IMG/VR virus record: IMGVR_UViG_3300029319_000005
Coordinates: 68,402 to 132,401 of that record
DNA: 64,000 bases
Reading direction: 5' to 3' (one strand)
Origin: a virus
Below are positions 52,791 through 63,936 of the stretch, one piece after another. The translations under genes and the position numbers were made by a program. Positions within the stretch are counted from its first letter, which is position 1. Each line of letters begins with the position of its first letter. A model generated the notes under the pieces. It saw nothing but the letters and a program-made list of their open reading frames with translations, was not told the origin of the DNA and did not search any database.

Positions 52791-53408
52791 CTAGATTATT
52801 TCGTCTATGAGTCCATACTTAAGACAGGTTTTTGCATCCCACCAGAGATCATGTTTTAGGATCTCGCCAAGCTGCTTTTTAGGAATTTTGGTATTTTCCT
52901 CGTATATTTTTTTAATTGTTTTCATCAAAAGATCACAATTTTGTAAGTCATCTTTCATGTCTTCATACTTGCCCCACATCCCGGAAGACAATTGGTGTAT
53001 TAGCATAAAAGAATGTTCACGCATGTATCTCTTGTCGCCAACAACACTCATAAGAGTCGCTGCCGAGGCTGCACATCCATCGATAATAGTATTTACAGGA
53101 ACCTTGCAATTCTTGATATAGTCCACGCTGGAAAAGCCCGCAAAAACACTGCCACCGTAAGAATTAATGTGCAAGTTTATATGGATGTCCGGAACGTCCA
53201 ATATATTAGCACTGTTGCTGTATCTGTTGGATAAGGTGACTATGTACTTATTTAAGTACAGATTGTTCGGTCGAGTTACTTCAGAATAGAAGTAAATATT
53301 GTTATTCTCCCACTCAATCTTGTTGTTTGGTCCAAACCCTGTTCCTTTACTTGTAGTAGTTGTGGTTTGGGGTTTATTTGCTTTTGAAAACCAATAGTCT
53401 TCGTTCAA
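52791..53408 (-). CDS. clpP: ClpP-like serine protease
   Basis: 205 aa, TTG start with AGGAGAA upstream. The ClpP fold is seen in DIHINLHINSYGGSVFAGFS (about 74-93), the nucleophile Ser in IIDGCAASAATLMS (Ser about 115), His in FMLIHQLSSG (about 138), and Asp in LWWDAKTCLKYGLID (about 191). The N-terminal 45 residues are extra. In phages ClpP-type proteases may act in head maturation or with host Clp ATPases. It is the last gene before the tRNA and has its own promoter. Confidence 0.85.
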   Translation of the reverse strand: MNEDYWFSKANKPQTTTTTSKGTGFGPNNKIEWENNNIYFYSEVTRPNNLYLNKYIVTLSNRYSNSANILDVPDIHINLHINSYGGSVFAGFSSVDYIKNCKVPVNTIIDGCAASAATLMSVVGDKRYMREHSFMLIHQLSSGMWGKYEDMKDDLQNCDLLMKTIKKIYEENTKIPKKQLGEILKHDLWWDAKTCLKYGLIDEII

Positions 53409-53474: not shown

Positions 53475-54365
53475 TTATCTAAAGTTGGCATAACCTATGT
53501 CAATAATAGCTATCTGTCCATTTTTTTCCATAATGTTTGAAGTTTTCAAATCATTAAAGATAATGCCATTGTCGTATAAAAAAGTTAGTCCGGATGCAAG
53601 TTGGTTAAGATATAAACTTCTCGGGTCACTTAAAACTTTATTTGCGTGTTCTGTTGCCGACAGAGAGTCAGATAAAGTAGAATTATACATACCGACACTT
53701 AAGGTCCAAAATTCAGTAAAAAGTCTTTTTTGTAGTTCATCCCATCCTAAAGTATTAGAAATAGAATCAATTTTTGGTTCTATCGAGTCCCACTTATTGG
53801 AAGAAGGAGTTAAAACGATGGAATCCTTAGACAGGGCATTCAAAAATTGTTTTATAAGATTCTCTGCTTCAGATAAGTAAGATTCTTTCCACTGGTAGTA
53901 AAACTTATCTTTTTTTATTTTATGGAACATAAGCTCTGCTACATCAACCATTAATCTATTTGGATATTCTAAGTAAGAATATACAATGGCGTATCTCTGA
54001 TTTTCCAAAGGTCTAAATTCTACGGGCAACTCTTGTGCTTTATAAATTGTGTAAACATTCGGGTGTTCTTTACCAGCTATCATTTTAGCGGCGCGATACT
54101 CTGTGTCATCCGACGTTATCTTCAACACTTTTTTATCAAACAAATAGGCAGAACCTTTTGATCCAGAACCAAGAAAATCAGGGTCTCCCTTTAGATCTCC
54201 CCATTTTTTAAATGATTCTATAGCCCTAGAAGTAAGAGGTATTCTTTTTTGTTCATCAGTTACTTTAGCTAAAGAATCATTAATAAATCTTCTTCCGCTG
54301 TCTAATGTATTGATACGCTCGTCTAGACTTTTATATGCTCTCCATCCTGCAAAAATATCTCGCAT
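53475..54365 (-). CDS. protein-kinase-like protein with N-terminal W-R motif
   Basis: 296 aa. After the N-terminal MRDIFAGWRAYKSLDE, a kinase-fold domain: glycine loop LGSGSKGSAY (about 65-74), the Lys in KVLKIT (about 82), catalytic loop GIIFNDLKTSNIM (Asp about 272, Asn about 277), and AIIDIGYANFR with the metal Asp (about 289) in a DIG in place of DFG. It lacks most of the C-lobe, ending just after DIG, so it may be a minimal kinase or pseudokinase. The N-terminal motif ends in LDE, as in the other putative capsid-targeted proteins. Confidence 0.7.
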   Translation of the reverse strand: MRDIFAGWRAYKSLDERINTLDSGRRFINDSLAKVTDEQKRIPLTSRAIESFKKWGDLKGDPDFLGSGSKGSAYLFDKKVLKITSDDTEYRAAKMIAGKEHPNVYTIYKAQELPVEFRPLENQRYAIVYSYLEYPNRLMVDVAELMFHKIKKDKFYYQWKESYLSEAENLIKQFLNALSKDSIVLTPSSNKWDSIEPKIDSISNTLGWDELQKRLFTEFWTLSVGMYNSTLSDSLSATEHANKVLSDPRSLYLNQLASGLTFLYDNGIIFNDLKTSNIMEKNGQIAIIDIGYANFR

Positions 54366-54366
54366 G

Positions 54367-54951
54367 TTATTTCTCTATGTCTTCTAATAGACGAGATATC
54401 GCCCAGCGTTTATTACGAGAAAAATTCTCGTAATACTCTATTTCGGCAGCTTCTTTGAAATGAAATGGACGCCCCTTAACCCGCGACATAAATTCTGATT
54501 CTTCGCCCATCTTAATCCCACCAACATCCATTGTCTCACCAAAAGGGGGGTATTCATTGTCAGGCCTAGTTCCTACAAGAAAAGCGTCGCTCGCGCCGCG
54601 AGGTATTAGAAGAACAGAGTCTTGCTCGTACTCAATGCCAAAATTTTCTATCGATTTAAAGAAATTAGGCTTATTATGTTTGTTTACAACAAGCAGGCTC
54701 TCTTCTGTAACTTCTACTGCCTCTGGAGTTTCAAAGTTTTCAATAAATGAGCCCACAAGTTTAGCGACACCATAGCCTCTTTTGAGTAGACGAGCTTTTA
54801 ATATTTGTCCTTTTTCTTTGTTCTCTTTTGCGGTATTTTCTGCACGATAAGCAGAAATGATAGCAGTGTCGTATTCTTTCATATGAGAGTAAAATCTAGA
54901 TAAAGATGATTCTGCTAAAAATATTCTCCATTCATGTAGTATATCTTGCAT
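54367..54951 (-). CDS. conserved phage protein with N-terminal W-R motif
   Basis: 194 aa. N-terminal MQDILHEWRIFLAESSLSRF carries the family motif with LAE at 12-14. The body has AIISAYRAENTAKENKEKGQ, a VGSFIENFETPEAVEVTEES segment, DSVLLIPRGASDAFLVGTRP and EFMSRVKGRPFHF. I recall this arrangement from conserved proteins of diverse phages, without a function. Two bases separate it from the kinase-like gene, so the two are on one transcript. No signal peptide. Confidence 0.6.
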   Translation of the reverse strand: MQDILHEWRIFLAESSLSRFYSHMKEYDTAIISAYRAENTAKENKEKGQILKARLLKRGYGVAKLVGSFIENFETPEAVEVTEESLLVVNKHNKPNFFKSIENFGIEYEQDSVLLIPRGASDAFLVGTRPDNEYPPFGETMDVGGIKMGEESEFMSRVKGRPFHFKEAAEIEYYENFSRNKRWAISRLLEDIEK

Positions 54952-54968
54952 AATTTTTAGTGCCTCGC

Positions 54969-55018
54969 TAGTAAGTAGGGTTCGTCAAATAAAAGATATC
55001 TAATATATCTACTTACTA
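54969..55018. promoter_or_regulatory. 10-bp inverted repeat in divergent intergenic region
   Basis: TAGTAAGTAG at 54969-54978 and its exact reverse complement CTACTTACTA at 55009-55018, separated by 30 bases, lie in the 71-base gap between the divergent minus-strand gene (start 54951) and the plus-strand J-domain gene (start 55023). The right arm is four bases from the ATG. The core GTAAGT is shared with the direct repeats at the ClpP promoter. Likely a regulatory site; a hairpin role is possible. Confidence 0.45.
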
Positions 55019-55022
55019 TACT

Positions 55023-55640
55023 ATGAGCAAAGTCTCAACAAATAAGTCTAACATAGAAAAAGAAAAATTCAAGAAAAGATTTCAGAAAAGAACAATGTTA
55101 GAAATCTCCGCCTTAGTTCTTGAACTTGAAGAGGCTGAAGAGTTGGACATAGAGTACAGCAAAAAGTTTTCTGCGGACTTTAAGGATGAGTTAAAGTATA
55201 AAGCTGCTCTCTTAGACGAGATTGAAAATGCTCCTACAGAGGAGGAAAACATCTCAAAGTCTAAAAAGTCAGAGCCACATGATTTTATAAAAACTCTATA
55301 CAGAGAAATAGCTAAAAAGACACATCCTGACAGATTTGGAGATGAGTACCAAGACCAATTTAAAACTGCCAGTGTTGCCTATGAAGAAGAGGAGTGGCTT
55401 ACACTGCTAATGATAGCTGCCGATTTAAGTATTAACATGCCCCTCTTTGATCAAGATGCTCAACAAATAATAAGTAAAGAGATAGAACACAAAAGACGAT
55501 TACTAGAAAAAAAGAAAGAGTCCCTAGTATGGGCCTGGGCTTCGTCGGATGACTGTCCAGAGACAAGGCGCAAAGCTAGGTCTTACATGGACATCGATGA
55601 AGATAAATTCCAAGAATTTTTAAAAAAAGACTCTATGTAG
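55023..55640 (+). CDS. J-domain-like protein
   Basis: 205 aa. The J-domain core is FIKTLYREIAKKTHPDRFGD with the HPD tripeptide at about 101-103, followed by a helix with FKTASVAYEEEEW. The N-terminal half is charged and helical. C-terminal half contains AWASSDDCPETRRKARSYMD. J-proteins stimulate the ATPase of DnaK. A phage J-protein may redirect the host chaperone. The ATG has no clear ribosome site, and it ends eight bases inside the convergent gene. Confidence 0.68.
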   Translation: MSKVSTNKSNIEKEKFKKRFQKRTMLEISALVLELEEAEELDIEYSKKFSADFKDELKYKAALLDEIENAPTEEENISKSKKSEPHDFIKTLYREIAKKTHPDRFGDEYQDQFKTASVAYEEEEWLTLLMIAADLSINMPLFDQDAQQIISKEIEHKRRLLEKKKESLVWAWASSDDCPETRRKARSYMDIDEDKFQEFLKKDSM

Positions 55641-55893
55641 CACCATCAGAGAGGTCCGCAATTTCTTCTTCAGAGTCCTCTAATCTAGTGAAATGAACTT
55701 CCATAAAGCTGTCGTCCGTGAGCCAAACAGGCCTAAACTTTAGGGAATTGTTGTCCTCGCTAATCTCTTGTAAGTCTGGGTTGTGGTTTACGAGATAGTT
55801 AACCACAATCTTTTGTACTTGATCTTTTTCTAGAGAAATGCTACCAAGGTAGGTAACTTCTCCTTCAGCATTTTGTTCAGTATCGGTACTCAT
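55633..55893 (-). CDS. small acidic protein, unknown
   Basis: 86 aa, acidic ends with a beta-rich centre (EVTYLGSISLEKDQVQKIVV, NNSLKFRPVWLTDDSFMEVH). No recognised family. The C-terminus (SEEEIADLSDGAT) overlaps the end of the convergent plus-strand gene by eight bases. It is separated by two bases from the next gene upstream in the same operon. Confidence 0.5.
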   Translation of the reverse strand: MSTDTEQNAEGEVTYLGSISLEKDQVQKIVVNYLVNHNPDLQEISEDNNSLKFRPVWLTDDSFMEVHFTRLEDSEEEIADLSDGAT

Positions 55894-55895
55894 TT

Positions 55896-56087
55896 TTAAT
55901 CCTTATTTTCGTATTGTTTGTCTACTGCTGAAACAATTGACCACGTTTCAGATCCTTCTCTACGGTTATTGCACGCTACATAAGCTTCAGTGGAAGCTTG
56001 GGGGAAGGTATGTGCCTCTACAAGTATACTCTCTCTCTTACCAGTTGAAGAGCTTTGTATAATAAATTCAAATTGTTTAATTGGCAT
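55896..56087 (-). CDS. small protein, unknown
   Basis: 63 aa. MPIKQFEFIIQSSSTGKRES, then ILVEAHTFPQASTEAYVACN and a C-terminal half with SETWSIVSAVDKQ. It is like short DNA-mimic or beta-strand phage proteins in shape only. No function. It lies between two other small genes in the same operon. Confidence 0.45.
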   Translation of the reverse strand: MPIKQFEFIIQSSSTGKRESILVEAHTFPQASTEAYVACNNRREGSETWSIVSAVDKQYENKD

Positions 56088-56091
56088 TTTA

Positions 56092-56256
56092 TTATCCTAA
56101 AATAAGCTTTTTATTTTCTTTAACAGAGGTTTCTTTTTCTTCCAGCACTTCTTCAAGTTGAAGAGAGGCTAGATGTGGGTATTTTTCAAATACTTCAGGA
56201 AGAGTTAATTTTTCTTCTATCTGAATTTTCTTTATCTGTTCTGCTACTTTACCCAT
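56092..56256 (-). CDS. short protein, unknown
   Basis: 54 aa from the ATG MGKVAEQIKKIQIEEK at 56256, which has a GAGGG site; a TTG at 56325 would give a longer reading overlapping most of the lipoprotein gene and is unlikely. Lys/Glu-rich helices (LTLPEVFEKYPHLASLQLEE) without family match. Overlaps the lipoprotein's stop. Confidence 0.45.
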   Translation of the reverse strand: MGKVAEQIKKIQIEEKLTLPEVFEKYPHLASLQLEEVLEEKETSVKENKKLILG

Positions 56257-56521
56257 CGTTCCCTCTATAAAATTCTTCTTGTACTCTCTTTTCCGTATCT
56301 TCAAACTTTTTTTCGAATTTGTCAATCTTTTTTTTTAAAAGATCGCAGTCTTCCTTATTTCTTATTTCAAGACACCTAGAATATACTTGCATTATAAACG
56401 CCTGATCTCTACCATCATTGAACCCATGTATATAACCAAGATCATGACTATAATATCTGTTATTTGTACAAGAAATAAAAAGTGGAAGTAATAAAAAGTT
56501 AAGAAATAAAGATCTTACCAT
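56249..56521 (-). CDS. small lipoprotein
   Basis: 90 aa. N-terminal MVRSLFLNFLLLPLFISCTN has a hydrophobic core followed by a lipobox (FISC, Cys about 18). The mature part is highly charged (NKEDCDLLKKKIDKFEKKF), probably a helical bundle or coiled coil facing the periplasm. It has two further Cys (CLEIRNKEDC). Start codon lies inside the end of the coiled-coil gene. Role unknown. Confidence 0.6.
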   Translation of the reverse strand: MVRSLFLNFLLLPLFISCTNNRYYSHDLGYIHGFNDGRDQAFIMQVYSRCLEIRNKEDCDLLKKKIDKFEKKFEDTEKRVQEEFYRGNDG

Positions 56522-56772
56522 TTGTGAGTTGGTTCAATCTTCTTTGCTAAGGTTCGAAGATGTTCTGAGAACGTGTTCTGAGTAGTGCTTAGCTGGTTCT
56601 TGAGGATTGCTACTTCGTCAACAAGATCGCTAATCCTGCTTCTCATAGCACCAAGCTTGTTGTTGGTTTCCAGTAGCTGCTCTTGTAAAGCTATAGTCTT
56701 TGTAGATAGCTCTTCATTTGTCTGTAGGTTTAGTAGTCCTTCGTCGACTACATTCTTCTTTCTTCCTGCCAT
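56515..56772 (-). CDS. coiled-coil protein
   Basis: 85 aa, MAGRKKNVVDEGLLNLQTNE then a heptad-rich helix (about 20-75: LSTKTIALQEQLLETNNKLG, MRSRISDLVDEVAILKNQLS). AAGGAG precedes the ATG. It is followed by the lipoprotein gene whose charged helical tail may pair with it. Function unknown. Confidence 0.55.
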   Translation of the reverse strand: MAGRKKNVVDEGLLNLQTNEELSTKTIALQEQLLETNNKLGAMRSRISDLVDEVAILKNQLSTTQNTFSEHLRTLAKKIEPTHKW

Positions 56773-56784
56773 TTTCTAACTCCT

Positions 56785-56880
56785 TTAGAATCCGGGGCAA
56801 TGTATAAAAATACTAGCGGTTGATACAATTCCAAAGCAAATTATAGCAACCATAAGAAACTTTTGAAAGTTTTCTTTCAT
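56785..56880 (-). CDS. short transmembrane peptide, 31 aa
   Basis: MKENFQKFLMVAIICFGIVS then TASIFIHCPGF. A charged N-terminus with one transmembrane helix (about 8-26) and two Cys. Its stop is followed in the same transcript by the AAGGAG and ATG of the coiled-coil gene. It is the same size and type as the next peptide upstream, which suggests they are real small membrane proteins rather than chance frames. Region upstream (56881-56931) is AT-only-like sequence without other features. Confidence 0.45.
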   Translation of the reverse strand: MKENFQKFLMVAIICFGIVSTASIFIHCPGF

Positions 56881-56931
56881 ATAAATACAATAACATATAT
56901 AATATATTATTTAAATAAATATAAATATTTA

Positions 56932-57024
56932 TTATTCTTTTTGATCAAACAGATATTTTAGTCCAATAATAAATAAAATTAAATATACTAGCCATTTTAT
57001 TTTAGTAAACAAAGGGTGCTCCAT
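56932..57024 (-). CDS. short transmembrane peptide, 30 aa
   Basis: MEHPLFTKIKWLVYLILFII then GLKYLFDQKE. A single transmembrane helix (about 10-25). The ATG follows directly on the TAA of the exported 135-aa protein gene (TAAATG), consistent with coupled translation. Too short for homology judgement. Confidence 0.45.
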   Translation of the reverse strand: MEHPLFTKIKWLVYLILFIIGLKYLFDQKE

Positions 57025-57432
57025 TTACTTTTCTTTAAGGTCTAGTACCCATTCGCCATTTACTTTCTTAGCACTTACTCTCATTCCAAGAAAATACCAA
57101 CGCTCGAACACGCTAGCGTCTAACTCCGGTACAAGGCCTTTCTCAATGTCTCTAAAAAATCCAACTGCTCCCTGGATAATCTGCGACTCAACCGAGTGGT
57201 CATCTCCAATCTCAAAAACTTTTTTACTCTTGTGCTTTATATCTAGCCATGCTACTGTGTCTGCCAATGTTTGTTTCATTCTTTTATTTTTGGCAATGTG
57301 GGCAGCATGATACAAATGCCCCTTTAGTGTATCAATATGGATTCCCATAAATGGGTGCCCACCGTAAGTTACCTTTGCGGAAGCGCTCACGGATATAAAA
57401 CACAAAATTATAGCTAATATTAATTTTTTCAT
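57025..57432 (-). CDS. exported protein, unknown
   Basis: 135 aa with a cleavable signal peptide (MKKLILAIILCFISVSASAK, cut after ASA). The mature part is helical with His and Lys (YGGHPFMGIHIDTLKGHLYH, then AAHIAKNKRMKQTLADTVAW) and a C-terminal strand VNGEWVLDLKEK. No known domain. Expected in the periplasm. Its start ATG shares a base with the stop of the ART-like gene upstream (TAATG). Confidence 0.6.
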   Translation of the reverse strand: MKKLILAIILCFISVSASAKVTYGGHPFMGIHIDTLKGHLYHAAHIAKNKRMKQTLADTVAWLDIKHKSKKVFEIGDDHSVESQIIQGAVGFFRDIEKGLVPELDASVFERWYFLGMRVSAKKVNGEWVLDLKEK

Positions 57433-58034
57433 TAGATTACTCCTCTATCCATCTTCTGGATTTGTAGCTTTATGTCTTCAGTATACACTAGTCTAGGATC
57501 TTTTTCCTCGTATAATGAAAATTTAGACTTATCAAAATCATCAATCGATAGGCTGACAACCATCATCTCTCCGCCGTGCCTATCGACGCTAGCTGCTGCA
57601 TTACTTTCGGCTAATTCATAATTTCCCCATTCGCTTGGAGCAGGAACTCCGTTTTCAACTAATGAGTCTTTTAGTGCGGTCGACGTACCATAGAAAAGTT
57701 CAGTTATGTTGTCTAAACGCTTAGATTTAGGAGGATCGATGCCTTTAAAATAACTGGGAAGGCCCATTTCGCCTGTAGCTCTCCAATCTCCGCTGTTGAC
57801 TGCTTCTAAGGCAGAATAGAGATCTATCTCTCCTCCCCCAAGACTATCAGTCCACGAGACGCCATTTTCATCTACTTTTTCAATTTTAATGATAAGAGGC
57901 TTTTCCTCTGAAAACTCATGGTCTCGTATCACGGCACCAGGGACAATGCCAGCGGCCTCTAACTTCTGCAAGTACTGTGTGCTAACTCTCGATTCTTTCA
58001 AAAACTTCCGCCACTCTGTTAGTAGTTTTTTCAT
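57432..58034 (-). CDS. ADP-ribosyltransferase-like protein with N-terminal W-R motif
   Basis: 200 aa. N-terminal MKKLLTEWRKFLKES, with LKE at 12-14, then a small beta domain (about 25-95), then LFYGTSTALKDSLVENGVPA (about 114-133), GNYELAESNAAASVDRHGGE and VVSLSIDDFD, which has the order of ART/Tpt1-like folds (Y-x-GTS near the NAD site, a helix, a Y/L-T-strand, the A-x-x-A helix, and a V-x-L-x-D strand). The usual His before GTS is a Tyr here, so activity is uncertain. T4 Alt is a capsid-packaged ADP-ribosyltransferase, which makes the pairing of this domain with this N-terminus suggestive. Confidence 0.5.
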   Translation of the reverse strand: MKKLLTEWRKFLKESRVSTQYLQKLEAAGIVPGAVIRDHEFSEEKPLIIKIEKVDENGVSWTDSLGGGEIDLYSALEAVNSGDWRATGEMGLPSYFKGIDPPKSKRLDNITELFYGTSTALKDSLVENGVPAPSEWGNYELAESNAAASVDRHGGEMMVVSLSIDDFDKSKFSLYEEKDPRLVYTEDIKLQIQKMDRGVI

Positions 58035-58036
58035 TC
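57997..58036. repeat. 40-bp direct repeat, copy 1
   Basis: A 40-base stretch identical to 61931-61970. It spans the start codon and the first 12 codons of the motif-bearing gene at 58034 and the few bases before it. The other copy spans the start of the tandem ParB-like gene. Exact identity at the third codon positions points to recent copying of the leader sequence at DNA level. Confidence 0.9.
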
Positions 58037-58651
58037 TTTTTTTACCAGTTCCTTATTTATGATATCATAGCCTTCCACAACTCCCACCTTTTCGTAATCA
58101 AAATCGGGGAGTAGAGCAATCTTTTGTTCTGGAAATTTACCATTTACAATAAATGAACAAGCTTGACCTACCACTTCTGTGAAAAGGGCTGGATGTGACT
58201 TAGGTGGCATTGTTTGTATGTGTGCATTATAAGAAGCAATTTCGCCTTTGGCATCGAACTTTGTACCTCGTTGGATGTGAGACATGAAGTCGTGGACTGC
58301 TCTAAATTTTGCGTTTGTCTTGGGATCAAAGATATCGTGTTCTGCATCAAGCGTAGAAATTTTTAAAACACCATTCTGTTTCACATCTTGCTTTAATTCT
58401 TCTGCTGTAGCATAAGGATGTTCCTCAACAAACTCTACATCGATAACACCTTCAATTCTTTTAAACATCTTATCAACAAAAGGCTTCATCGCTTCAAAAT
58501 AGGGAACAGCGGCTGAATCAAACCTGGGCGCTTTAGCATAAGCTTCTGCAACCAACTGGCAATACTTATCCCAACCATTTGGTCCGGGCTTAAGCATTAA
58601 TTTTTCATCTAATACGACGAATTTACGCCAATTTTCAAGTAAGAGTTTCAT
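58031..58651 (-). CDS. conserved phage protein with N-terminal W-R motif
   Basis: 206 aa. N-terminal MKLLLENWRKFVVLDEKLM has the motif with LDE at 14-16. The rest includes FRAVHDFMSHIQRGTKFDAK, GEIASYNAHIQTMPPKSHPA and LFTEVVGQACSFIVNGKFPE, a conserved set with several His that I recall from phages of marine and gut bacteria without a known function. The His/Asp positions could bind a metal. Four-base overlap with the ART-like gene. Confidence 0.6.
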   Translation of the reverse strand: MKLLLENWRKFVVLDEKLMLKPGPNGWDKYCQLVAEAYAKAPRFDSAAVPYFEAMKPFVDKMFKRIEGVIDVEFVEEHPYATAEELKQDVKQNGVLKISTLDAEHDIFDPKTNAKFRAVHDFMSHIQRGTKFDAKGEIASYNAHIQTMPPKSHPALFTEVVGQACSFIVNGKFPEQKIALLPDFDYEKVGVVEGYDIINKELVKKE

Positions 58652-58652
58652 A

Positions 58653-59192
58653 TTACCATGCCTTACAAGACCAATATCTTGCTTTCCATTTAGGCCCAGG
58701 GTTTTTGCAATTATGTCGAGCCCTGAAAGATTTTCTAGCCTTTGGATTAGATTTTCTAATTTTCATATTAGGATCACCGAAGTTTACTTTAACAACGTTG
58801 CCTTTTGCATTCTTAACATAGACCTTAGATTTTTTAACATCACCCTTCATAGGCTTATTTAATGTTACTTTGCGACCTTGGTATTCTGCTTCTTCTAAAA
58901 CCTCGCCTTCTGCGAGCATCTCATAGTAGGCTTGCTCGTCTACATCTTCGGTAGTAACTTTCTTTTGTTGCTTGGCTTTTTTAACTTTGCTTTTAAGACG
59001 ATTCATATTATATTTACCAATCTTAGACAGCTTCGACAAAGCCTGCACCGCTGATGGACTACTATGCCCAGCCATTATGGCATCGATTGCTTGTTTCTCT
59101 AGTTCAGCTATGTTTGGAGAATCGTCTTCACTTAACAAGGCATTAAGTTCTTCTTTTACAATTTTTCTAATCTGTTCTTTTGTGATATTCAT
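58653..59192 (-). CDS. modular protein with N-terminal NITKEQIRKIVKEE leader and C-terminal Arg/Cys-rich module
   Basis: 179 aa. Opening MNITKEQIRKIVKEELNALL is a second type of leader I recall from many marine phage proteins; it ends with LSE at 20-22. C-terminal modules are EYQGRKVTLNKPMKGDVKKS and a final SFRARHNCKNPGPKWKARYW module, known from marine phages with no assigned function. L-x-E sites (MLAE, VLEE) occur just before the EYQGRK module. AGGAG precedes the ATG. Likely basic, virion- or DNA-associated, by inference. Confidence 0.6.
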   Translation of the reverse strand: MNITKEQIRKIVKEELNALLSEDDSPNIAELEKQAIDAIMAGHSSPSAVQALSKLSKIGKYNMNRLKSKVKKAKQQKKVTTEDVDEQAYYEMLAEGEVLEEAEYQGRKVTLNKPMKGDVKKSKVYVKNAKGNVVKVNFGDPNMKIRKSNPKARKSFRARHNCKNPGPKWKARYWSCKAW

Positions 59193-59314
59193 CGGTCTGC
59201 TCCTATTGGCTTTTTCCTTATTTTTCCCTTTTCTAACATTTTCCGACCCACCTGGCCAGTCAAGTTCATCCGGTCATATGTGTGGCTCATACCAGCCTTG
59301 TTTACTATCTTTCA

Positions 59315-60343
59315 TTATCCTTTTTTTCCTGCTTTAGATTTTTTGCCAGATTTTTTTGAGGTCCCACAATCAGATGGTGTTGGGCGACAATGTGGATACT
59401 TTGCTCTTTTTTCGCCCTCTTTTCTTCCGCACGATTTGCAAGTTTTCCTACCAGTCTTCTCGTCTTTTCTACAGGTATTGCAGTCCACCCAGCCTTTTGA
59501 TTTGCCTTTACCACCTTGTCGGGAAAACCAACCGTGTAGACCGGATTCTTTTTCTTTAGAGTAGTCAGTTTTCTTTTTCTTTTCTTCTAGCTCGTTCTCT
59601 TGAACGGGCACACAATTGGGAACCATACGATCGCCCTTTTTCTTCATCCCAACTTGCTCATATCCCTGCCAGCACGCTTCACCTAATACGTTTTGTATTT
59701 CTTCTTCTACTATCTTTCTAATATCTTCTTTTACACCTTTCCAAATCTTTCCTTGTCGGCATTTGACCACTGCTCCGGATGCATATGCAGATGGCCAAAC
59801 ATCATACTTACGCTTTGCTATTCTAGTGCAGCGGTCCCCCTTCTTCTTTTTCTTCTTTTTCTTCTTCTTGCGTTTTTTTTCTTCTAGCGAATCTTGATTT
59901 TTTTCTTGCCATTCCGCAGACTTATCATCTTCTGTAATTGGGCCGCCTTTCGCCCATGTCCGGCAAGACCTGGCGGAGTGGCATTTAAAGTGGTGCATCC
60001 AACAGTACCCAAGCTCACCATCATCATCGGATGTTTCTCCAGGCATGCAGTCTTTCATTCTTGGTGAGATATCAAATGCTACACAATTGCCACATAATGA
60101 TGCCTTAGCGGCCTTTTCATCGGTATTCCAATACTCAGCTATGTCTTTCCAGTAATCCCCCGGTTCATCGACGTTTAAAGGGCCATATTGAATATGATCT
60201 TCGTGGATAGCTGCATCGCGGTTCTTTGTGTTTAATTTTAGATCTTGAGTTGCCGGTGGGCAAACAAGCTCCGTTGCTGCTTTAACAACAACATCAACAC
60301 TTTCTTTTAGATATCTTTGCCACTCTGTTAACAATTTTTTCAT
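59315..60343 (-). CDS. modular Cys-rich, Lys-rich protein with N-terminal W-R motif
   Basis: 342 aa built of modules: leader MKKLLTEWQRYLKES (LKE 12-14); a Cys/His-rich domain (about 84-130, several CxxC-like pairs, possibly zinc-binding); LEE at 153-155 followed by a run of about ten Lys; a module CTRIAKRKYDVWPSAYASGA (about 172-191); an internal leader-like EDIRKIVEEEIQNVLGE ending in LGE at 220-222; ACWQGYEQVGMKKKGDRMVP; LEE at about 252-254; then a GLHGWFS...GWVDC...CGRK module of DUF5872 type (about 268-325). Each module start follows an L-x-E. Confidence 0.6.
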   Translation of the reverse strand: MKKLLTEWQRYLKESVDVVVKAATELVCPPATQDLKLNTKNRDAAIHEDHIQYGPLNVDEPGDYWKDIAEYWNTDEKAAKASLCGNCVAFDISPRMKDCMPGETSDDDGELGYCWMHHFKCHSARSCRTWAKGGPITEDDKSAEWQEKNQDSLEEKKRKKKKKKKKKKGDRCTRIAKRKYDVWPSAYASGAVVKCRQGKIWKGVKEDIRKIVEEEIQNVLGEACWQGYEQVGMKKKGDRMVPNCVPVQENELEEKKKKTDYSKEKESGLHGWFSRQGGKGKSKGWVDCNTCRKDEKTGRKTCKSCGRKEGEKRAKYPHCRPTPSDCGTSKKSGKKSKAGKKG

Positions 60344-61968
60344 TATTCATTTACTCCCTTTGGTAATCCTAAAAGTATCTTCGTTTCTTTAGAACCGCCA
60401 ATATCCCTTATATACCAACCATTATAATTAGGATATTTACCTTCAGGATGACCACCTAGCCATGTTATTTCTTTACCTAACACTCTTTCGACATCTTCTT
60501 GACTATCCACAAACGGGACACCGTACTTGGTTATCATAATGTGAGCAATTGCTTTTGACATCTCAGAAAAATATCCAGGAGTATTCAATAATTGCGCTGA
60601 CTTATCTATATAAGCAGTTATAGCTTCTTTGCTTCCATCGTGGCCCGCAACAGTCATCTTTTTGCCTGCTGGCTTGTTAGAAGACACGCGCAAAGCGTCT
60701 GGCTCCGGATCAGAGTCTATATCAGTTGCAATGTATTCATCGTATTTGCCCGGTAAATCCGATGCAGATCTTATATTCGAATGTCCACCAATTTTCTTAT
60801 AGGCATTATTTATAAGATTATATAACTCATCGGCTAGGTTTATTTCGCCGCCACGATCTCTAGCAGCAGAAGCAATATCTTCGATAGGTATATCAAGCCA
60901 CTGGCCTTTGGGGGCGTCGTAGTCTGCCCATTTATTTTCATTCAAATTAACTTCTCTTTGAAATAGAAAGTATACAGGCACCTGTTCAAGACCAAGTTCC
61001 TGTGCAATTTGATGTCTATGGTTCCCCTCGCCAATTTTGGCTACACCATTCGATCCAAATTGAATAAGCAAGGGCTCACGTATACCGTTTTCTTTTATGT
61101 CCGCCCTTAACTCTTCGTATTTGCCAGTTTTTATTCTACGTAGCCGGTCCTTAACGTACTCTCTGTAAGGGGCGAGTTCTTCAGTTGGGTAATAAACGGG
61201 ATCACTGGAATCGACGTTACTTTCCATGATAGTACCTCGATTTTCAACCCAACATTTTAAAAGCTGTTCAATGGAAGGAGGATTATTTTTATTAATTGTA
61301 TAATACGCTTTGCCATAAGGGTCTATTTCGGGACAAACAAAGTTATCTCTTCCGACATCATCGTATGTAAACGATTCATTCAAAAACTTCCGCCAATCTA
61401 CTCTCCCTACTAGTTGTAAGATCTTGGCAACGTTTTTGTGACTGTTTGGCTGAGCAATAATTTTATAAGCCTTTAAGTCAGCATTTGCCTTTTGGGCCAA
61501 AAATGCCCTGTGGTTCCCATCAGTAACTTCACCATTTTCATCAATAGTAATGGGAGGAAATTTGGAAAAATCAACTTCGCGTGGGTCGGCTGGATTATTT
61601 CTAAAATAGAGCGCATCTTTCCCGGCGGCTTTATCTTTGATGTATTGTTGATATTTTCTCTCTCGTTCTTTTACCGCCTCATCTGATATTTTATAATCAC
61701 TTGGACTTACTAAAAACGGGCCTTCTAAAATATATTTGTCTATGCCATGTATAAATCGTTTCAATTCTGGGTATGAGTCACGACCTTCGTTGTAATGATA
61801 ATCTAATAATCGCTTTTGCTTTGGGAACATGCCTATTAATAGTTGGTGGATTTCGTTAGCTTTTTTGGGATCTCGCAAAGCATTACCTACATTTTCCCAA
61901 TCACTAGTTTTCATCGAATGGATCTCTTCATTCAAAAACTTCCGCCACTCTGTTAGTAGTTTTTTCAT
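60343..61968 (-). CDS. three-domain protein: tandem ParB-like domains plus C-terminal domain, with internal W-R motif
   Basis: 541 aa. The leader MKKLLTEWRKFLNEE (LNE 12-14) precedes a first ParB/Srx-like domain (about 60-180; ITIDENGEVTDGNHRAFLAQ). The motif DWRKFLNES recurs at 191-199 (LNE 196-198), followed by a second ParB-like domain (about 240-335; GVAKIGEGNHRHQIAQELGL). A third LNE (342-344) precedes the C-terminal domain (345-541; WADYDAPKGQWLDI, MTVAGHDGSKEAI, GKYPNYNGWYIRDIGG), which I recall from marine phage proteins; it might be acetyltransferase-like but this is not certain. Three domains, each preceded by LNE. Confidence 0.65.
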   Translation of the reverse strand: MKKLLTEWRKFLNEEIHSMKTSDWENVGNALRDPKKANEIHQLLIGMFPKQKRLLDYHYNEGRDSYPELKRFIHGIDKYILEGPFLVSPSDYKISDEAVKERERKYQQYIKDKAAGKDALYFRNNPADPREVDFSKFPPITIDENGEVTDGNHRAFLAQKANADLKAYKIIAQPNSHKNVAKILQLVGRVDWRKFLNESFTYDDVGRDNFVCPEIDPYGKAYYTINKNNPPSIEQLLKCWVENRGTIMESNVDSSDPVYYPTEELAPYREYVKDRLRRIKTGKYEELRADIKENGIREPLLIQFGSNGVAKIGEGNHRHQIAQELGLEQVPVYFLFQREVNLNENKWADYDAPKGQWLDIPIEDIASAARDRGGEINLADELYNLINNAYKKIGGHSNIRSASDLPGKYDEYIATDIDSDPEPDALRVSSNKPAGKKMTVAGHDGSKEAITAYIDKSAQLLNTPGYFSEMSKAIAHIMITKYGVPFVDSQEDVERVLGKEITWLGGHPEGKYPNYNGWYIRDIGGSKETKILLGLPKGVNE

Positions 61969-61970
61969 TC
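61931..61970. repeat. 40-bp direct repeat, copy 2
   Basis: Identical over 40 bases to 57997-58036; it covers the start of the tandem ParB-like gene. A partial third copy (21 identical bases: positions about 61375-61395 against 61927-61947) lies inside the same gene and encodes the internal RKFLNE, consistent with fusion or recombination between leader sequences. Confidence 0.9.
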
Positions 61971-62384
61971 GTATACCACGCTCATTCCCATAGAAGTCTC
62001 TGTTGACTTGCCAGAGTTTCTACCAAGCGCGTGCAAGACTTCAATTGGATCATATCCAACTATTATTCTATCGTTAACAACAAATAGTGGAATAGCGTTT
62101 AATGTGCCTTCGTATCCTATCTGTTTTGCGATCAACTTAAGTTGTTCTTTAACAGCCTTATTTTCAAAATCTTTTTCAATAAAAGTAACATCGTTATCAA
62201 TTAAAAATTTCTTTGCTGTTTTACACCATCCACACCAAGGAGCAGAATAAAGTATGACAGTATTTTTTGGGATATTTATCTTTTGAACTGTTACTATAAC
62301 GTTCTGTCTTAGAGGTATAGAACTTTCCGGAATACAGGAAGAGGTTAGAAATAAGGAGAGTATTGCTAAAATTATTTTTTTCAA
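61965..62384 (-). CDS. glutaredoxin/thioredoxin-like lipoprotein
   Basis: 139 aa; TTG start preceded by GAGGG. Lipoprotein signal MKKIILAILSLFLTSSCIPE with lipobox LTSSC (Cys about 17). Thioredoxin-fold domain: VILYSAPWCGWCKTAKKFL with the CGWC redox pair at 51-54, and a cis-Pro strand AIPLFVVNDRIIVGYDP (about 97-113), typical of glutaredoxins. A lipid-anchored glutaredoxin is unusual; it would act in the periplasm. Overlaps the ParB-like gene by four bases. Confidence 0.75.
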   Translation of the reverse strand: MKKIILAILSLFLTSSCIPESSIPLRQNVIVTVQKINIPKNTVILYSAPWCGWCKTAKKFLIDNDVTFIEKDFENKAVKEQLKLIAKQIGYEGTLNAIPLFVVNDRIIVGYDPIEVLHALGRNSGKSTETSMGMSVVYE

Positions 62385-62387
62385 TTA

Positions 62388-63587
62388 TTAACCCTCTTTA
62401 TGTTTAAAATAGTTAACTTGTTTTTCTCTCTTTTCCGCGCCCTTTTTTGAATCGTAGCAACCGAGATTACGACCTGTTTTTGCAATCAAACAATACTTTC
62501 CATCTTTCTTTCTAATGACTTCAAATAAGCCTCTTATTATAGCCTCTCTTAACACTTGACGTATTGTAATAGAGCTAGATTCTCTTAAGAGACTCTCAAA
62601 CATCTCAGAGGGATGGTGTTGTCGCGAAATATCTTTACCAGTGATTTTACCCATCCACTGATCCCTAAATTTTCCTGCCAAATCTGCGTCGCTTTTTGAT
62701 GCTCTTTTGGAGTAGTCATTTGGAATTTTAAACTTTTTACCTCCGGGCATTATCACTTCAAGGTCACCCTCCAGGTTAATTTTTTTAGCCACAATCTCGA
62801 CCCAAGTGTCCCAAAGAGACTTCGATACGCTAGCTTCAGTAGTTTTATTCATAGCAGCAATTTGCCTTAAGAACTCGACATACTTCTCAGCCATCTTAAC
62901 TCCGCCTTTTGTAAGCTGATATAAGTTAGAGCTTGTGTCCAGCTTCTTTCCAGCGGTTTTAAAGCCGACACGACCGTCTTTGTCTGTTTTTATTAATTTA
63001 CCTTCAGGATCAAGACCTTTATAAATATTAAGATTGATGCTGTCTATGCATCCTAGTCTACCTATTATTAGCTGTGAAGCAAAGGCTGCTTTTGGCAAGC
63101 CAAGACCCGGAACTCTTAAAAACTTAAGATAAGTATTGAACATTGCCTCTTCTTTTTCGATGCTTCCGGATTTAGCATTATTATATTTGTTTATGTCTGA
63201 CATTATAGAGGAATACATTTTTCCTCGATTGTTCCAAATATAATCGATTGCTCTCTTCCTGAATCCTAGTATTAACATTTTTATAGACTGCGGGAAGTCT
63301 TGGAATTCTTCTCCGGTTAATAGGCCATCATTTTGTTTGATGTATTTCATCAAGATAGGAAATCTTGGAACAACTTCATACCATCTCTGTTGCTGAGTTG
63401 CGATAACGAAAATTAACATTTCTGCTAAATTTTCTGGGCTCTCTTGTGCATAAGAGTTGATGGCGGGATTGTAAATACAAAAGCCACTGTCACCAATGTC
63501 TGCAACATTTAAGACTAGCGGATCCGGTTCGTCGAGTCTGTCTTCTTCTTTTAAGAACCGCTTCCAAGATTCAAGTAGTAATTTCAT
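62388..63587 (-). CDS. HhH-glycosylase-like protein with N-terminal W-R motif and C-terminal module
   Basis: 399 aa. Leader MKLLLESWKRFLKEED (LKE 12-14). A central helical region has FLRVPGLGLPKAAFASQLII then GRLGCIDSINLNIY (about 156-190), like the helix-hairpin-helix of HhH-GPD DNA glycosylases (L-P-G-(V/L)-G-x-K-T-A), with a possible catalytic Asp in CIDS. At the end, LRE (334-336) precedes ITIRQVLREAIIRGLFEVIR, a leader-like helix of the second type, and the module KYCLIAKTGRNLGCYDSKKG common in marine phages. It may act on DNA; no lysine proven. Confidence 0.6.
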   Translation of the reverse strand: MKLLLESWKRFLKEEDRLDEPDPLVLNVADIGDSGFCIYNPAINSYAQESPENLAEMLIFVIATQQQRWYEVVPRFPILMKYIKQNDGLLTGEEFQDFPQSIKMLILGFRKRAIDYIWNNRGKMYSSIMSDINKYNNAKSGSIEKEEAMFNTYLKFLRVPGLGLPKAAFASQLIIGRLGCIDSINLNIYKGLDPEGKLIKTDKDGRVGFKTAGKKLDTSSNLYQLTKGGVKMAEKYVEFLRQIAAMNKTTEASVSKSLWDTWVEIVAKKINLEGDLEVIMPGGKKFKIPNDYSKRASKSDADLAGKFRDQWMGKITGKDISRQHHPSEMFESLLRESSSITIRQVLREAIIRGLFEVIRKKDGKYCLIAKTGRNLGCYDSKKGAEKREKQVNYFKHKEG

Positions 63588-63626: not shown

Positions 63627-63936
63627 TGGTGGAGGTGTCGGGAGTCGAACCCGAGTCCTAAATATATCGAATAAAACGTCGTTCACAAGGTTAGTTGGTT
63701 TTTGGCTCCAACAAGCACAAGACACAAATTCTTTACTATTGGGTAAGGCTAGTAAAGAAGCCTTTATTTGCAGCTTTGGTTAACAAGGTTGCTGCCACCC
63801 CGTGGTTATGCCGCTAGGGCGTAATCAAAAGCAACGTTATCGTTGGCAATTAAAGTTTTGAGTGTTTTTACTGTGCCGCACTCACACAGCCTTGCACATT
63901 CTATTTTCAATACCCAGTCGATACCAATTCACCCCC
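63627..63936 (-). ncRNA. ssrA: tmRNA (ssrA), one-piece
   Basis: 310 bases. The 5' end GGGGGTG pairs with CACCTCC before the encoded ACCA 3' end (one G-T wobble). T-arm TCGGGTTCGACTCCCGA and a D-like loop GAATTGGTATCGACTGGG are standard. Pseudoknot 1 is seen as CTGTG/CACAG interlocked with GAGTG/CACTC. The tag reading frame (63847 down to 63806) encodes ANDNVAFDYALAA then TAA, ending in the ALAA degron recognised by ClpXP. With SmpB, tmRNA rescues stalled ribosomes and tags their products. CCA is encoded. Phage tmRNAs are known but uncommon. Confidence 0.95.

Follow-up and report, generated by a model that had tools for sequence, protein, structure and literature searches.

In bacteriophage T4, the prohead protease gp21 cuts after L/I-x-E, and the propeptides of the internal proteins (IPs) are capsid-targeting sequences (CTSs) (PMC9026906). 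In IPIII, residues 4 and 7 act mainly in targeting and residues 8 and 10 in processing, which is blocked by Asp at position 10 (P1) (PMC9026906). A signal sequence common to non-homologous injected proteins is already established for T4-like phages (PMC9026906, PMC12373910), so the kind of signal considered here is known. Ejection proteins of SPN3US and phiKZ are processed after Glu (A-x-E or S/A-x-E) by a gp21-related protease, and the paralogues gp53 and gp54 have an identical 15-residue N-terminus (PMC5694885). The Dar antirestriction proteins of phage P1 are described as head-associated and as countering restriction after injection (PMC12810830). We analyzed a 64,000-nucleotide stretch of viral DNA (the window; positions 68402-132401 of the 147,376-bp IMG/VR record IMGVR_UViG_3300029319_000005), in which minus-strand genes at window positions 53475-63587 encode proteins that share an N-terminal leader. 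This leader is very probably a CTS that acts like that of the T4 internal proteins, with an S77 protease cutting after L/I-x-E and the cargo staying in the head, probably for ejection.

The leader and its likeness to the T4 signal

The seven minus-strand open reading frames (ORFs) of the original prediction are all present, with the starts it gave, and each begins with a leader of consensus MKxLLxxWRxFLxE. Residue 8 is Trp in 7/7, as had been claimed, and the closing L-x-E ends at residue 14 in five genes (starts 54951, 58034, 60343, 61968, and 63587) and at residue 16 in two (54365 and 58651). Trp8 occurs in nine of the 142 genome ORFs of at least 80 amino acids (aa), compared with 1.7 expected (binomial P ~6e-5), and in 7 of the 14 ORFs within the 53475-63587 interval. 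A 16-column profile hidden Markov model (HMM) of this leader, class A, matched eight places in the genome at E <0.1, comprising seven gene starts and one internal copy; six of the seven genes scored at independent E-values (iE) of 7e-8 to 2e-5. The kinase leader (start 54365) is too diverged for the HMM, and orthologues of this kinase have canonical leaders (MKLLLENWREYNRLNE-RINTL and MKLLFENWRKYMNE). Information content drops toward background past residues 14-15.

Additional leader genes were anticipated elsewhere in the genome, and at least three lie outside the window, encoding a HAD-like protein (genome 135327), a Nudix hydrolase (139474), and a 1102-aa protein (141491). These had been missed by the original prediction, as had internal leader copies within fusion proteins and a second class of leader, B (MKITKxxLKxIIxEEL), which is in the same register as A, with L/I12-x-E14. 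The class B profile has eight matches in the genome, including one in the interval (start 59192) and one beside the protease gene.

The original prediction described the leader as longer than the T4 signal but of the same logic, and the comparison can be made more precise. In the T4 record, IPII and IPIII begin MKTYQEFIAE. With an offset of four, T4 residues Y4, F7, I8, and E10 align with leader residues W8, F/Y11, L12, and E14 (an alignment only); along the T4 CTS core, the final seven residues of the leader correspond position by position, and four extra residues precede them. A search of T4 with HMM A1 gave no match, and profile-level homology to the T4 CTS was undetected, so the claim is that the leader works like the T4 CTS, rather than one of proven common descent or membership. 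Shared with the T4 system (IPI, IPII, IPIII, Alt, and gp21) are a short N-terminal propeptide common to unrelated proteins, a homologous protease, the L/I-x-E cut motif, an aromatic-x-x-F-(L/I)-x-E core at matching positions, and hypervariable cargo. Unlike the T4 signal, the leader has 14 residues, a K-x-L-L extension, and Trp replacing Tyr. A genome also carries 10 or so class A leaders, the cargo clusters number at least 136 and many are catalytic, and there are in addition the second signal, class B, and multi-cargo fusions with internal L-x-E. The head propeptides of SPN3US and phiKZ are cut after Glu by a gp21-related protease, as is predicted for the leader, but they are mostly >100 residues long, have another motif, and do not include a short tag common to dozens of unrelated proteins. 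On sequence grounds, a role in both targeting and cleavage is well supported, and the leader would represent a much expanded variant of the T4 CTS.

The prohead protease and its predicted cut site

A T4-type head module lies on the minus strand of the record (genome 40.7-51.5 kb), with a portal (phrog_213), terminase, S77 head maturation protease (phrog_207), scaffold-like protein, and gp23-type major capsid protein (MCP; phrog_138). The S77 enzyme is a prohead protease of the gp21 type for which the original prediction had proposed a search: it matches PF03420 with 111 bits, over the family cut-off, and is 37% identical to T4 gp21 across 145 aa, with the conserved His and Ser regions (ELxHP and SSRG) aligned. 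The MCP of leader phages has a conserved LL[KR]E directly before [AS] at the expected cut, ahead of the mature region, where T4 gp23 has FLTE. In this lineage the MCP propeptide also contains a near-invariant LLxKWxxTGLLEG, similar to the T4 gp23 counterpart LLNKWKPLLEG. We hypothesize that the leader may mimic this core-binding segment of the capsid protein.

Evidence for a cut site comes from 95 leaders gathered by residues 1-9 only, outside pattern-selected loci. [LI]xE occupies residues 12-14 in 65 of them; among the remaining 30, a shifted [LI]xE ends at residues 15-21 in 19 (control window, 1/30), and nine have [VMFAT]xE at 14. The Glu:Asp ratio at position 14 is 76:1 in this sample and 248:3 in all 292 leaders. 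Orthologues of the gene at 58031-58651 have leaders of 14, 15, 16, or 19 residues, each with [LI]xE abutting K[LM][MV]LKPG. For the S-adenosylmethionine (SAM) lyase, a boundary of E directly before SSLSR is retained in four relatives of differing leader length, with M-x-E at this boundary in one pair. The kinase orthologues L091 and L048 have E directly before RIN, and one kinase relative has no such boundary. Together, the conserved boundaries and the selection for L-x-E point to a maintained cleavage site.

The leader has an amphipathic pattern, often with an E-rich stretch after it, as might be expected if the leader routed proteins to the virion as a permanent docking helix, uncut, with L-x-E simply part of that helix. 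We consider this very unlikely. The bias toward Glu over Asp at position 14, the relocation of [LI]xE, and the retention of the mature boundary despite leader insertions and deletions are unexpected for a helix-only element, and the MCP of the same phages has its own conserved L-x-E at the expected cut.

Fusion proteins extend the case for a CTS with a cut site. A 541-residue protein is a three-part fusion, in which alignments to separate genes for parts 2 and 3 begin at a leader Trp and at an L-x-E, respectively, and a 342-residue protein is a comparable fusion of modules. Such fusions may represent polyproteins that would be separated into their parts within the prohead.

Separately, in the head regions of other phages a small ORF lies between the gene for the protease and that for the capsid protein; in Mel-JY01 (L333:4184-4411) its annotation is ribosomal protein S21, and relatives (e.g., L139 and L142) have similar short basic ORFs at this place. 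One gp23-type capsid gene (L282; contig G117:22021-23613) has two in-frame TAA codons, possibly due to stop-codon reassignment or sequence errors, and a 242-kb phage contig has two neighboring MCP genes (L223; contig G101:139182-142911).

Distribution, cargo, and competing explanations

The leader-bearing phages are uncultured, T4-related, and mostly marine. A degenerate DNA pattern for the leader matched at least 118 stretches in the IMG/VR viral collection, versus one viral match for a codon-shuffled control pattern, and 151 of 152 degenerate-pattern matches sit at the start of an ORF that either has at least 60 aa or runs off the end of its contig. A survey of 257 Gb of prokaryote DNA (85,000 genomes) returned 20 pattern matches, one at the start of a long ORF and none convincing as a leader gene. 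Rather than residing mainly in non-phage genes, which would have spoken against the original prediction, the leader is effectively absent from prokaryote genomes. The leader alone had no tblastn match in cultured phages, after which profile HMMs were adopted; these found no convincing match in 37 random viral contigs or in T4, KVP40, P-SSM2, S-PM2, T7, phiKZ, SPO1, and lambda. A cultured relative, Flavobacterium phage immuto (laboratory host LMO8), encodes kinase-like, HAD nucleotidase, and Cys-rich homologues that have leader-like starts ending L/I-x-E, a likeness judged by eye (103366 MISIYNILKE, 103806 MENTFDLKKFLVE, 109856, 111184, and 125241). Leader contigs of at least 100 kb (25 in all) carry 2 to 13 leaders apiece, often clustered.

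Co-occurrence was assessed in 50 contigs picked only for the A leader, 23 picked for the B leader, and 37 random viral contigs. S77 was identified in 26/50, 18/23, and 5/37, respectively, and a T4-type capsid gene in 23/50 A-leader and 16/23 B-leader contigs. The link to gp21-like proteases that the original prediction had proposed holds in every capsid-bearing leader contig (A, 23/23; B, 16/16) and in the A-leader contigs of at least 150 kb (14/14). A-leader contigs without S77 are also without a capsid gene, as fragments would be expected to be.

We identified 365 leader ORFs in IMG/VR, in 136 sequence-distinct cargo clusters. Recognized domains include ART-PolyVal (four clusters), kinase, GNAT, DUF192, CCA-type polymerase, C39/C70 protease, DnaJ, Zeta, Nudix, SleB-type hydrolase, HD, and SAM lyase, and in the cases checked these begin at residue 19 or later, past the leader. 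Several cargo families sit behind A in one phage and behind B in a different one; examples are a head-proximal protein (L141 versus L183) and a small protein (L110 versus L298) that is 66% identical right from the predicted cut. This exchange suggests that A and B are equivalent signals.

Some leader ORFs, like T4 gp67 and gp68, adjoin protease and scaffold genes; those of L141, L163, L166, L187, and contigs G008 and G011 are immediate neighbors of the protease gene, a location that also favors a CTS. The leader proteins could on this basis be head-core or scaffold components consumed in assembly and not ejection cargo. However, few leader genes are located by head genes, and the cargo is for the most part hypervariable, with a large share of enzymes (ART, kinase, SAM lyase, protease, GNAT, and Zeta among the clusters), which makes this alternative very unlikely. 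It is extremely unlikely that the leader serves as a cassette for recombination or expression, a start region copied among genes without protein-level function: the 58034 and 61968 leaders share 13/13 codons, indicating a recent copy, but those of 58034 and 58651 have eight residues and only three codons in common, so the copying of a single DNA block does not account for all leaders, and neither the sharp end of conservation nor the internal L-x-E of fusion proteins, where a start region is needless, fits such a cassette. Readings of the leader as a secretion signal, or as a tag for phage-nucleus import or tail-tube cargo, are disfavored given the lack of a hydrophobic core, the T4-type head module, and the protease-site evidence, which indicates the head.

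Several observations weigh against a CTS function. About four of the 95 leaders have no clear site (e.g., L406, MKKIIVKWRKFVDTAKEY), and L-x-E is short and frequent by chance. The co-occurrence with S77 stems partly from the shared ancestry of one broad phage lineage, and some S77 phages are without leader A. The T4 late promoter TATAAATA has 18 sites where 23 would be expected, and none of them immediately precedes a leader gene, so it provides no evidence on timing. Our searches turned up neither virion proteomics nor N-terminal sequencing from the leader lineage.

The original prediction was of packaged, processed, and ejected host-takeover proteins. The protease, its co-occurrence with the leader, and boundary conservation support this idea; from them we infer packaging and cleavage, and ejection lies one step further. 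We predict that during prohead assembly the amphipathic N-terminal segment would bind the scaffold core, drawing diverse enzymes inside, with W8 and F/Y11 the probable docking residues. The gp21/S77 protease would cut after (L/I)12-x-E14, or a nearby shifted L/I-x-E, releasing the mature protein, and class B (MKITKxxLKxIIKE, cut before EL) would be a second version of the same signal. The freed proteins would then be present in the virion head and probably be ejected with the DNA, acting on the host at time zero, with SAM lyase directed against restriction and ADP-ribosyltransferases, kinases, proteases, and Nudix enzymes serving takeover. P1 Dar is comparable to such cargo by its described role, as head-associated anti-restriction.

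Genes of the window and implications

Leaders and cargo of the window are listed in Table 1. The kinase-like call of the original prediction agrees with Pfam and the ParB-like call is weakly supported (PF02195, below its cut-off), whereas Pfam gave no confirmation of the ADP-ribosyltransferase-like (57432-58034) and HhH-like (62388-63587) calls. The SAM lyase (gene 54367-54951) had not been named. A single-sequence AlphaFold2 model of 57432-58034 was uninformative (mean pLDDT 34).

Table 1. Leaders, cargo, and internal motifs of the leader-gene cluster, in window coordinates
Feature	Position	Strand	Evidence or remark
Kinase-gene leader MRDIFAGWRAYKSLDE	54318..54365	-	Predicted cut after E16 (L-D-E); orthologues L091, L048, and L068 have canonical leaders
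Cargo: short protein-kinase-like protein	53475..54317	-	PF00069 E=2e-9
Leader MQDILHEWRIFLAE	54910..54951	-	HMM iE 5.8e-6; predicted cut after E14, before SSLSR
Cargo: SAM lyase, candidate injected anti-restriction enzyme	54367..54909	-	PF23780 E=4.7e-14
Leader MKKLLTEWRKFLKE	57993..58034	-	HMM iE 9.5e-8
Cargo, ART-like by eye only	57432..57992	-	No Pfam match <0.02
Leader MKLLLENWRKFVVLDE	58604..58651	-	Predicted cut after E16, before KLMLKPG; boundary kept in orthologues
Cargo, phrog_3170 family	58031..58603	-	phrog match
Class B leader MNITKEQIRKIVKE	59151..59192	-	HMM iE 3e-5
Class B cargo, basic Cys-containing C-terminal module (phrog_7595)	58653..59150	-	phrog match
Leader MKKLLTEWQRYLKE	60302..60343	-	HMM iE 1.7e-5
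Cargo: CPPATQDL module fused to Cys-rich basic module	59315..60301	-	Elsewhere, each module is a gene of its own with a leader (L122; L117, L021)
Internal class-B-like motif VKEDIRKIVEEE, residues 204-215	59699..59734	-	Within 342-residue fusion
Leader MKKLLTEWRKFLNE	61927..61968	-	HMM iE 7.4e-8
Cargo: three-part fusion, ParB-like middle part	60343..61926	-	In other phages, parts 2 and 3 are genes of their own with leaders
Internal leader remnant WRKFLNE, residues 192-198, first fusion junction	61375..61395	-	HMM match; L010/L043 alignment begins exactly at its Trp
Internal L-N-E, residues 342-344, second fusion junction	60937..60945	-	L065, L106, L030, and L079 alignments begin here at their leader residue 12
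Leader MKLLLESWKRFLKE	63546..63587	-	HMM iE 1.9e-7
Cargo, 399 aa including leader	62388..63545	-	No Pfam match

Basic Cys-containing small modules, as in 58653-59192 (FRARHNCKNPGPKWKARYWSCKAW) and 59315-60343 (RCTRIAKRKYDVWPSAYASGAVVKC), recur in many leader proteins, and one occurs in phage immuto at 111184; they are possibly DNA-binding internal proteins. Other minus-strand neighbors in the window are a transfer-messenger RNA (tmRNA) gene (tag ANDNVAFDYALAA; 63627-63936) directly upstream of the leader-gene cluster, a glutaredoxin/thioredoxin-like protein with a lipoprotein-type signal sequence and no leader (61965-62384) between two leader genes, and a ClpP-like ORF (by eye; 52791-53408) beside a tRNA-Thr gene, just past the cluster.

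A literature search for the motif letters, which covered few subscription papers, found no paper; work on T4, SPN3US/phiKZ, and P1 was among the relevant results for capsid targeting. As far as that literature allows, novelty lies in the motif and its class B version, in the size and frequently enzymatic character of the cargo set, and in the proteins that fuse several cargoes. We lean toward a broader view, in which a large uncultured T4-related lineage would use the interchangeable tags A and B to load an open-ended set of injected proteins of more than 100 kinds, some of them multi-effector polyproteins that the prohead protease would cleave apart in the head.

Mass spectrometry is the normal route to a phage's injected proteins, which it reveals singly. 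With a readable tag, injected effectors could be listed straight from metagenomes for a widespread phage group. The tag would also give functional context to more than 100 mostly unannotated families and flag new anti-defense and host-takeover enzymes. In addition, the leader would offer a new label with which to direct proteins into the phage head, a use to which the T4 CTS has been put (PMC9026906).

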